From Ensifer sp. IC3342 (GTDB lineage: Bacteria > Pseudomonadota > Alphaproteobacteria > Rhizobiales > Rhizobiaceae), in contig NZ_JADYVE010000001.1 in the NCBI RefSeq assembly GCF_020193655.1, positions 1,178,001 to 1,242,000 of the forward strand: a DNA stretch of 64,000 bases, written 5' to 3'. The position numbers and the translations under genes were made by a program. The notes below the pieces were generated by a model that was given only the letters and a program-made list of their open reading frames with translations, did no database searches and was not told where the DNA came from. Every line of letters starts with the position of its first letter. The first letter of the stretch is position 1. Shown here in pieces: positions 2,673-28,545 of the stretch.

Positions 2673-3290
2673 GTGACACTCGCGGCCCTTCTCGCCTATA
2701 GCGGCGCCCTCTTCATCGCGGCGGCCATTCCCGGTCCCGGCATAACGGCGCTGGTTGCGCGGGCACTCGGTTCCGGATTTCGCGAAACTTTCTTCATGGG
2801 CCTGGGACTAATTCTCGGCGACATGACCTATCTGACGGCCGTGGTGCTCGGACTCGCCTTCGTCGCCCAGACCTTCACCACGGCCTTTCTGATCGTGAAG
2901 ATCGCCGGTGCGCTCTATCTCGGATACATCGCCTGGAAGCTCTGGACCGCCGGCCTTTTGTCGCAGGACATACAGGCGAAAAAGTCGGCGAGCGCGGCGA
3001 TGTCCTTTCTGTCGGGGCTGATTGTGACGCTTGGCAATCCCAAGACGATGCTGTTCTATGTTGCCCTCGTGCCGACGCTCATCGATCTCACCGCCATCGG
3101 GCCCGAAGATTACAGCCTGCTGCTGGCGGCAACCTTCCTTGTCCTTCTCACGGTGCTGCTGCCCTACATGCTGCTTGCGGCCCGCGCCCGTTCGCTTCTG
3201 AAGCAGCCGAAGGCGCTCAGGGCGCTGAACCGGGCCGCGGCCGGCATCCTCGCGGGAACGGCGGCCTATATCGCGGCTCGGGCGAACTGA
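2673..3290 (+). CDS. LysE-family translocator
   Basis: Encodes 205 residues, starting at GTG behind a strong AGGAGGAAAA site. IPGPGITALVAR near residues 18-29 is the LysE/RhtB PGP motif, and LGNPKTMLFYVALVP is the second conserved loop. It has about six membrane segments. The gene is divergent from another LysE-family gene (about 175 bp between the two starts) and lies just upstream of cysK on the same strand. Export of cysteine or O-acetylserine is an attractive guess from that context, but the sequence does not prove it. Confidence 0.86.
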   Translation: MTLAALLAYSGALFIAAAIPGPGITALVARALGSGFRETFFMGLGLILGDMTYLTAVVLGLAFVAQTFTTAFLIVKIAGALYLGYIAWKLWTAGLLSQDIQAKKSASAAMSFLSGLIVTLGNPKTMLFYVALVPTLIDLTAIGPEDYSLLLAATFLVLLTVLLPYMLLAARARSLLKQPKALRALNRAAAGILAGTAAYIAARAN

Positions 3291-26763: not shown

Positions 26764-28545
26764 ATGCATGTGACCTCCCGCCTCCTAGCGCTGCCGCTCG
26801 CCGCCCTCGGTCTCACCGCAGCGGCGATCGGCGACGACATAAATCTCGTCGCTAGGGCGGAAGCCAACCAGACTGCAACGGCCGAAAGCGGGGGCGCGGG
26901 TGTGGGCACCCCCCTCTGCCCTGCCGGGCATCTCTCCCACAGGGGGGGAGATTGGCCAGTAGCAAGATCCTGCCTGATAGCAAGCGCGCAGGTGCCGGGG
27001 TCGAATTCAACGACAGACGCGCAGGTTAATGGCTTGAGCGGGGTATCGCCCCTTGCCGATCCCCCTTGTGGGGGAGATGCCCGGCAGGGCAGAGGGGGGT
27101 GCCGCTCCGAACGCGAAGACCTTTCCGAGCACGACCGCTCGCGCGTGCTGACGGTTACCCGGCCGACGACGGATTTCTCCAAGGCCGAACAATTCGAGGC
27201 TCTTTCCGCCGGCGCCGCAACGACGATTGCGCCGATCGACCGGCAAATCTTCTCCCAGTTTTCGTCGAACCTGCCCTTCGAGGCCGAGCAGAACTTCAAG
27301 CTCGGCAAAGCGCTCTTCGAGAAGCTCTGGGTTTCCTCGCCCTCCTCCACGCAAGCCTCCGACGGGCTCGGCCCGCTCTACAACGCCCGTTCCTGCGAGA
27401 GCTGCCATCCGCGCGACGGTCGCGGCCGACCGCCGGAAGGCGCGTCCGACTCGACGTCGATGTTCTATCGCCTTGCGCGTGCGCCGCGTGACGACGCCGA
27501 ACGGGAGATGATTCCCTCCCATACCGCGCTCAATTTTCCTGATCCCGTGTATGGTGTGCAACTCCAGGACAGCGCCGTGCCGGGGCTTGCAGCCGAAGGG
27601 CGCGTCGCGATCACGTATACGGAAGAGCAGGTGACGCTTGCGGACGGCGAGACGGTTTCCCTGCGGAAGCCGCATTACACGGTCGCCGGCCTCGGCTATG
27701 GCCCGCTCGATCCGACAACGACGCTCTCGCCGCGCGTCGCTTCCCCCATGATCGGTCTCGGACTGATCGAGGCGATCCACGAGGCCGACATTTTCGCGCG
27801 CTCAGATCCGGACGACCGCGACGGCGACGGTATCAGCGGGCGGCCCGCGCTAATACGCGACGCCAAAACCGGAGCCATGATGCTCGGCCGTTTCGGCTGG
27901 AAAGCCCAAAGCCCGACGCTCCGGCGACAGGCCGCCGACGCCTTCGCCATCGACATCGGCATATCCAGCCCGGACAACGACCACAGCCATGGCGATTGCA
28001 CCGAGGCGCAGAGCGATTGCCGGGCGCTGCCGACCGGCGTTCAGGAACGGCTCGGCACCGTCGAGGCGCCCGATCCGGTGCTTGGCCTTGTGACTTTCTA
28101 TACCTCCAACCTGGCCGTGCCGGCCCGCCGTAAGGCGAGCTTTCCGGAAACCTTGAGGGGCAAGCGGCTCTTCTACGAGTCCGGATGCACGGCCTGCCAT
28201 GCGCCGAAATTCGTGACGCGGCGCGATGCATCGCACAAGGAGCAGGCGTTCCAGTTGATCTGGCCCTATTCGGATTTCCTGCTGCACGATATGGGCGAAG
28301 GTCTTGCCGACGGCCAGCAAGTCGGCGTCGCCGAGGGCCGCGAGTGGCGAACGCCGCCGCTCTGGGGGATCGGACTGACGCAAACCGTCAGCGGCCACAC
28401 CTTCTTCCTTCACGATGGCCGCGCCCGTAGTCTTGCCGAGGCCATCCTTTGGCACGGCGGTGAAGCGGAGAAGGCTCGCAACGCCTTCGCCGCCCTGCCG
28501 AAGGACGACCGGAAAGCCCTGATCACATTCCTGGAGTCACTCTGA
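26764..28545 (+). CDS. Di-haem oxidoreductase family protein with an in-frame repeat insertion
   Basis: Encodes 593 residues. A short signal peptide is followed by two haem-binding CxxCH motifs: CESCH at 211-215 and CTACH at 475-479, as in the di-haem thiol-oxidoreductase/MauG-like proteins that partner imelysins in iron clusters. Residues about 48-114 are encoded by a palindromic repeat element (26905-27103) and look unlike the rest of the protein, with low complexity and many Gly, Cys and Arg. The frame stays open through it. The family-like sequence resumes at LSEHDRSRVLTVTRPTTDF. It overlaps the next gene by one base (TGATG). The role in iron transfer is inferred from context. Confidence 0.9.
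   Translation: MHVTSRLLALPLAALGLTAAAIGDDINLVARAEANQTATAESGGAGVGTPLCPAGHLSHRGGDWPVARSCLIASAQVPGSNSTTDAQVNGLSGVSPLADPPCGGDARQGRGGCRSEREDLSEHDRSRVLTVTRPTTDFSKAEQFEALSAGAATTIAPIDRQIFSQFSSNLPFEAEQNFKLGKALFEKLWVSSPSSTQASDGLGPLYNARSCESCHPRDGRGRPPEGASDSTSMFYRLARAPRDDAEREMIPSHTALNFPDPVYGVQLQDSAVPGLAAEGRVAITYTEEQVTLADGETVSLRKPHYTVAGLGYGPLDPTTTLSPRVASPMIGLGLIEAIHEADIFARSDPDDRDGDGISGRPALIRDAKTGAMMLGRFGWKAQSPTLRRQAADAFAIDIGISSPDNDHSHGDCTEAQSDCRALPTGVQERLGTVEAPDPVLGLVTFYTSNLAVPARRKASFPETLRGKRLFYESGCTACHAPKFVTRRDASHKEQAFQLIWPYSDFLLHDMGEGLADGQQVGVAEGREWRTPPLWGIGLTQTVSGHTFFLHDGRARSLAEAILWHGGEAEKARNAFAALPKDDRKALITFLESL
26905..27103. repeat. Palindromic mosaic element inside the di-haem gene
   Basis: The left arm (26905-about 26950, starting GGCACCCCCCTCTGCC) is nearly the exact complement of the right arm (27058-27103), with a few mismatches. 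Such elements in sinorhizobia normally sit between genes. Here it is inside a coding sequence, and translation reads through it without a stop. Confidence 0.8.

Follow-up and report, generated by a model that had tools for sequence, protein, structure and literature searches.

Results

An inverted repeat within a DHOR gene

The window, by which we mean the whole stretch of 64,000 nucleotides of Ensifer sp. IC3342 that was analysed, contains a di-haem oxidoreductase (DHOR) gene flanked by two genes with imelysin domains (Table 1). The earlier note on this DNA, made from its letters alone, described a roughly 199-bp inverted repeat inside the coding sequence at codons 48-114, with the frame open across both arms and the middle and with family-like sequence resuming behind the repeat, and all of this holds. 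The arms are 43 nt long, 95% complementary and 113 nt apart, and the RNA of positions 26905-27103 is predicted to fold at -144.1 kcal/mol, against -89.7 (sd 4.8) for shuffled sequences (z -11.3; 0/200 shuffles as low). The ORF is uninterrupted throughout the element, which lies in frame between a signal-peptide-like start and the DHOR domain, and each consensus arm is free of stop codons whichever of its three frames is read. The earliest invariant residues among 25 aligned rhizobial proteins are R117, D119 and L120, which follow the element.

A c-type di-haem protein needs export, and the host retains both a probable signal peptide and two invariant haem-binding motifs. Its core has an omega of 0.15 among carriers of the element, as expected of a working gene, while the signal peptide and the linker ahead of the loop have an omega of 0.52. 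AlphaFold returned no usable model for the inserted segment (mean pLDDT 38.6).

Table 1. Features of the DHOR gene and of the element inserted in it, by position in the window.
Feature	Position	Strand	Evidence
Host gene of the insertion (DHOR, 593 aa)	26764..28545	+	PF06537 at residues 150-593, E 1.3e-95
Probable signal peptide (end approximate, by eye)	26764..26832	+	Hydrophobic N-terminus in 31/31 aligned genus orthologues
Left arm, in-frame reading GTPLCPAGHLSHRG	26905..26947	+	Inverted repeat; arms compared over 19 carriers
Cys52 codon, left arm	26917..26919	+	Cys in 19/19 carriers (alignment column 55)
Loop, in frame and open	26948..27060	+	Omega 0.56, bootstrap 0.41-0.76 (19 carriers, 35 codons)
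Cys70 codon, loop	26971..26973	+	TGC constant in 19/19 carriers, neighbours variable (column 73)
Right arm, in-frame reading PPCGGDARQGRGGC	27061..27103	+	Inverted repeat; arms compared over 19 carriers
Cys102 codon, right arm	27067..27069	+	1 synonymous change, 0 replacements (column 127)
Cys113 codon, right arm	27100..27102	+	3 synonymous changes, 0 replacements (column 138)
First haem-binding motif CESCH, residues 211-215	27394..27408	+	Sequence; C211, C214 and H215 invariant in 25 proteins
Second haem-binding motif CTACH, residues 475-479	28186..28200	+	Sequence; C475, C478 and H479 invariant in 25 proteins

Distribution across the genus and other rhizobia

The DHOR gene is present in all 33 genomes of the genus, and the element, where carried, occupies the orthologous position. 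Nineteen genomes have the whole element in frame, one (G008) has it beside a frame break that falls between signal peptide and element, five hold remnants (G016, G012, G029, G001 and G021) and eight are without it (G017, G015, G014, G023, G003, G013, G019 and G020), although among these last G019 retains GATACCCCCCTC, which is scar-like. Measured from arm codon to arm codon, the element is 192-222 nt long in the 19 carriers; in the window it is 199 bp. Empty and filled sites have diverged from each other. The codon alignment used throughout comprises 31 of the 33 genomes, including the 19 carriers, with G008 and G021 excluded for their frame breaks. The insertion is neither recent nor an artefact, but old and common to most of the genus. 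Carriage on the gene tree, for which three of four chosen loci formed the outgroup, needs six changes, and a single origin is not forced; several gains, or transfer of the gene, would be compatible with the tree.

None of the other genera examined has the residues of this segment, and an arm-like match was found in none of 68 DHOR ORFs, recovered from 69 loci tried among the best 80 of 321 relatives. Other inverted repeats, scoring at least 13, occur in 12 of the 68, mostly upstream of the presumed start. In several Rhizobium genomes (loci such as L042, L059, L060, L071 and L078) the start of the DHOR gene is preceded by another long inverted repeat (CTGGATTCCTGTGAC...). In the DHOR gene of a further rhizobium (L041, at about position 3001), the linker that holds the element in the genus contains a separate small palindrome, whose arms read GACATCTCCCCC; it lies in frame and includes one unread base, and this linker may be a hot spot for insertion.

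Copies at other loci

A search of the window's genome for further copies returned 49 matching pieces (E <= 0.001), which by eye fall into about 16 sites, that in the DHOR gene included. We take the arms of the element to match RIME-type repeats. Matches also occur in 109 plasmid records, all of them from Sinorhizobium, Rhizobium, Shinella, Neorhizobium, Nitratireductor or Peteryoungia. Genomic context was judged on the 60 listed records only, from a gene table that is incomplete: at 48 the best match overlaps no annotated gene, ten are unannotated, and at two it overlaps a gene, which encodes an ABC transporter ATP-binding protein in Shinella. These counts bear out the claim, made at first reading, that the element normally lies between genes.

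Two further conserved proteins contain the element in frame. CobN (L144, L145, L146, L151, L155-L184) has it in its middle part in 13 of 24 aligned genomes, the other 11 being empty or scarred; 30 of 33 loci were fetched, 29 ORFs recovered, 24 aligned and 13 used as carriers. The window's own genome is empty at this site. A second CobN site, near GIWWPG, is filled in at least five genomes (the window's, G004, G011, G017 and G024) and empty in G012, G021 and G030, and CobN of G008, G019 and G024, which are not among the 24 aligned genomes, also contains element-like sequence. In the acidic N-terminal region of FtsY, in-frame arm matches occur in all 30 genomes read, of 33. Repeated element-derived peptides such as PISPLVGEMPGRAEGG and PPSVPSGHLPHKGG are seen in FtsY (L006:419-2245, minus strand; L185-L214), and palindromes may account for much of its acidic N-terminal region. 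The window's genome perhaps has one more in-frame copy, in an SLT_2 transglycosylase (L021:262-1770, minus strand), apparently placed before the hydrophobic core of the signal peptide, with the assigned start of the gene provisional.

Two spacers offer copies outside conserved genes. In spacer I3 (L270-L299), which follows an acyl-CoA dehydrogenase-like gene, a small ORF of 90-98 codons surrounds the element; its stop overlaps the ATG of the next gene (ATGA) in 10/10 carriers, its omega is about 1, and it may serve to maintain translational coupling. Different palindrome-like peptides occur in this spacer in several further species. In spacer I1 (L215, L222 and L223) the loop of the window's genome runs in the opposite orientation to that of G031 and G032. 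Long ORFs containing the element and associated with SMC_N, hydantoinase, GFO_IDH and penicillin-binding protein appear by eye to be upstream extensions and were left uncounted, and the FGE-sulfatase ORFs that likewise contain it are candidates only.

The arms are frozen at the nucleotide level

Between pairs of carriers, four-fold degenerate sites differ by 0.033 in the left arm and 0.052 in the right, compared with 0.362 in the core of the gene and 0.361 in the loop, and across 462 windows of 15 codons in the core the four-fold difference never falls below 0.167. Synonymous divergence (pS) is accordingly low, at 0.063 in the arms against 0.44 in the core, and AGA, which makes up only 1% of arginine codons in the core, is kept within the frozen arms. 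What changes the left arm has accepted are more frequent at the second codon position (0.8 per codon) than at the third (0.33), and hence it is not the protein that is conserved.

The same holds where the element sits in another context. In CobN the arms differ by 0.051 and 0.032, against 0.36 in the rest of the gene, where the lowest of 199 windows stands at 0.104, and the arms of the spacer copy I3 (10 genomes) differ by 0.036. The FtsY arm is less frozen, at 0.131 against 0.284 in the C-terminal part, a test that took only the last matching arm at each locus. Because the CobN and spacer copies are as frozen as that in the DHOR gene, and FtsY more weakly so, the freeze belongs to the element and not to the DHOR protein.

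Departures from the common sequence in the DHOR arms amount to 1.23 per site within the predicted small stems and 0.88 outside them; that they are no rarer in stems argues against a purely hairpin-based constraint. The four most common arm subtypes, which together make up 195 of 254 arms, are by our reading each able to fold into a small hairpin. Covariation across the 254 arms was suggestive for the first small stem only (38 compensated, 7 G-U and 93 broken cells) and was not seen in the second (1 compensated, 41 G-U and 171 broken); controls with shifted stems gave 0, 28, 1 and 2 compensated cells, the 28 arising at shift -1 because one subtype is offset by a base. A local RNA gene was also rejected as the cause, the one Rfam match being below its gathering score and outside the element, and other loci being equally frozen.

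Our best guess is that the freeze reflects selection acting on the individual copies as sites in DNA or RNA. Selection of this kind has been proposed for the BIMEs of Escherichia coli. It fits somewhat better than gene conversion, in which the arms would stay constant through overwriting from other copies in the genome, and which we regard as rather unlikely. In favour of conversion, exact 39-nt arm cores are present in 26 of 33 genomes and absent from a reversed control, and arms can recombine, as the I1 loop matches the reverse complement of the G031/G032 loop (79% vs 52%). Genomes with more exact arms also tend to retain the DHOR copy (20 vs 13 genomes, p 0.0001), a trend that stands at p 0.009 once two arms per carrier are subtracted and at 0.087 after one clade is collapsed as well. 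The arm variants themselves point in both directions: those in the DHOR genes of G002, G011 and G006 recur elsewhere in their own genomes, but those of G010, G031, G027 and G018 have no second copy there, counting exact matches only, so that near donors could be missed. Furthermore, particular copies have arm subtypes of their own that persist at orthologous positions. The left arm in CobN reads GTC...GAC in 10 of 13 species, while the right arm of the same copies reads GCCC...GGGC, for which reason correction of one arm by the other was also rejected. Neutral conversion alone, we reason, would not hold the consensus equal between species.

Reading frame and constraint on the protein

All 20 copies of the DHOR element belong to one length class modulo 3 despite having seven distinct lengths, and so do 24/24 elements in CobN loci and 19/19 in FtsY loci. 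Length class is equally constant in the spacer copy I3 (10/10), whose frame is open too, and a constant length class alone is therefore no proof of a protein segment; I3 is, for its part, not surely an untranslated control, and length classes are partly inherited and not independent.

Rates of change in the loop say more. Loop omega is below 1 in 200/200 bootstraps, over 35 codons only in the 19 carriers (Table 1), whereas the spacer copy I3, treated identically, has an omega of 1.13 (0.79-1.64); for the CobN loop the value is 0.75 (0.57-0.99). Four cysteines are present in the segment in all 19 carriers, and among the remnants two are found in G016, two in G012, none in G029 and three in G001. 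The loop is thus under weak protein-level constraint. We infer that the segment is translated and lightly constrained, and the four cysteines may form two disulfides.

The insertion could instead be harmless and neutral at the level of the protein, with only the frame kept and the segment cut off or disordered. We doubt this, although the loop changes only slightly less often at the first and second codon positions (0.279 and 0.295) than at the third (0.345), and a dispensable segment would agree with an element that is missing from 8/33 genomes and reduced in five. A neutral loop is harder to reconcile with an omega consistently below 1 when the spacer copy is near 1, or with a loop cysteine that is constant in 19/19 carriers. 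Protein-level selection on the arm peptides is a very improbable explanation of the conserved arms, and is refuted as sole cause because synonymous sites are also frozen and rare codons kept: the arm peptides are near-identical in the 19 carriers, include three of the four cysteines and show few changes (omega 0.53), but CobN keeps this DNA in a different reading frame, with an arm omega of 1.1, and it is also kept in a spacer. Scarcely credible, finally, is a true start after the element, a possibility raised in the earlier note that would leave the repeat as a 5' leader hairpin only, since the hydrophobic start lies upstream in every one of the 31 genus orthologues aligned, lengths fall in one class modulo 3 and loop omega is below 1, even though several other long ORFs with the element do look like upstream extensions, for instance that before an SMC_N-domain gene.

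Discussion

We consider it likely that the DHOR gene contains an ancestral, in-frame insertion of RIME type that has been retained as an extra segment, with its loop weakly constrained and its arms frozen by a factor other than the protein. The palindromic repeat would have entered the linker between signal peptide and DHOR domain in or near the ancestor of the genus, presumably once. The gene would have kept working because the length of the element keeps the frame and the consensus arms are free of stop codons, and the repeat would have become an extra segment of about 67 residues in an exported and presumably stable protein. The loop would then have drifted under weak constraint, retaining its frame, its lack of stop codons and the four cysteines, while several lineages later lost the element, wholly or with scars. 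Throughout, both arms would have been held near-constant at the nucleotide level by something unrelated to the DHOR protein. The earlier note had suggested an added segment in the linker behind the signal peptide, created by a palindrome and similar in principle to the Rickettsia RPEs; our analyses support this, the palindrome being one that is repeated in the genome.

The protein code cannot explain the freeze, and some process at the level of DNA or RNA must therefore do so. Beyond this locus we offer only a tentative generalization, on which our own judgement leans towards doubt: that in this genus some DNA- or RNA-level process, blind to context, actively holds the individual copies of a palindrome family to their consensus, even inside conserved genes, and that DHOR, CobN and the acidic N-terminal part of FtsY may have evolved around frozen cassettes whose sequence is partly set by a constraint other than that on the protein.

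Rickettsia is the best-known source of palindromes within protein genes, and the present case adds a free-living and genetically tractable genus. Filled, empty and scarred versions of one gene across 33 genomes make it possible to test what such an insertion costs, what it brings and what becomes of it. Synonymous sites that are frozen about seven- to tenfold within a coding insertion also provide a handle on the role of repetitive palindromes.

Comparison with known systems

The BIMEs of E. coli consist of inverted palindromic units within one larger element and have been proposed as sites for DNA proteins. The element described here is likewise formed of inverted palindromic units, but BIMEs are extragenic and their units shorter. 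RIMEs are reportedly the Rhizobium-specific intergenic mosaic elements of Osteras et al. 1995. Our element resembles them as a multi-copy rhizobial palindrome that lies mostly between genes, judging by the 60 listed plasmid records, and differs in that it also occurs inside genes, whereas RIMEs are described as intergenic. In the accessible part of one source, RIME, Sm-repeats and the A, B and C palindromes are rhizobial repeats annotated in intergenic regions (PMC2573895).

REPs are also found within coding sequences. The accessible text of PMC3733652 describes GTAG and CGTC REPs that lie within ORFs, in R. conorii, O. terrae, Thauera and others, and a REP at about the same site in recB of two Xanthomonas species; Sinorhizobium is mentioned a single time in its main text, for REPs that are targets of insertion sequences (IS) there. 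The likeness is that of small palindromes inside ORFs, but REPs measure 20-40 bp and are often near RAYT transposases. A search for RAYT (Y1_Tnp, PF01797) gave no match in the window's own genome, while the control was positive in 5 of 14 genomes, and RAYT was rejected as the mobiliser on this ground.

Our literature search, outside which most subscription papers lay, found no paper on intragenic RIME-type elements in Sinorhizobium, and in their accessible parts PMC2873474, PMC1525189, PMC554113 and PMC2635572 describe no such element. The closest parallel is with the RPEs, described in the accessible part of PMC2229807 as palindromes of 105-146 bp that occur between genes and are also inserted in frame, and tolerated, in genes for conserved proteins. 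The likeness lies in the in-frame insertion into conserved genes, here DHOR, CobN and FtsY. At about 199 bp, with arms of 43 nt or longer, our element falls outside the RPE size range (PMC2229807), and, in a comparison made with the description of RPEs only, it differs further in being kept over most of a genus with the synonymous sites of its arms frozen. In-frame palindromes are thus a known phenomenon, as RPEs and as intragenic REPs, and what we describe is insertion in the RPE-like mode by a palindrome that, judging by its length and the rhizobial hosts of its copies, probably belongs to another family.
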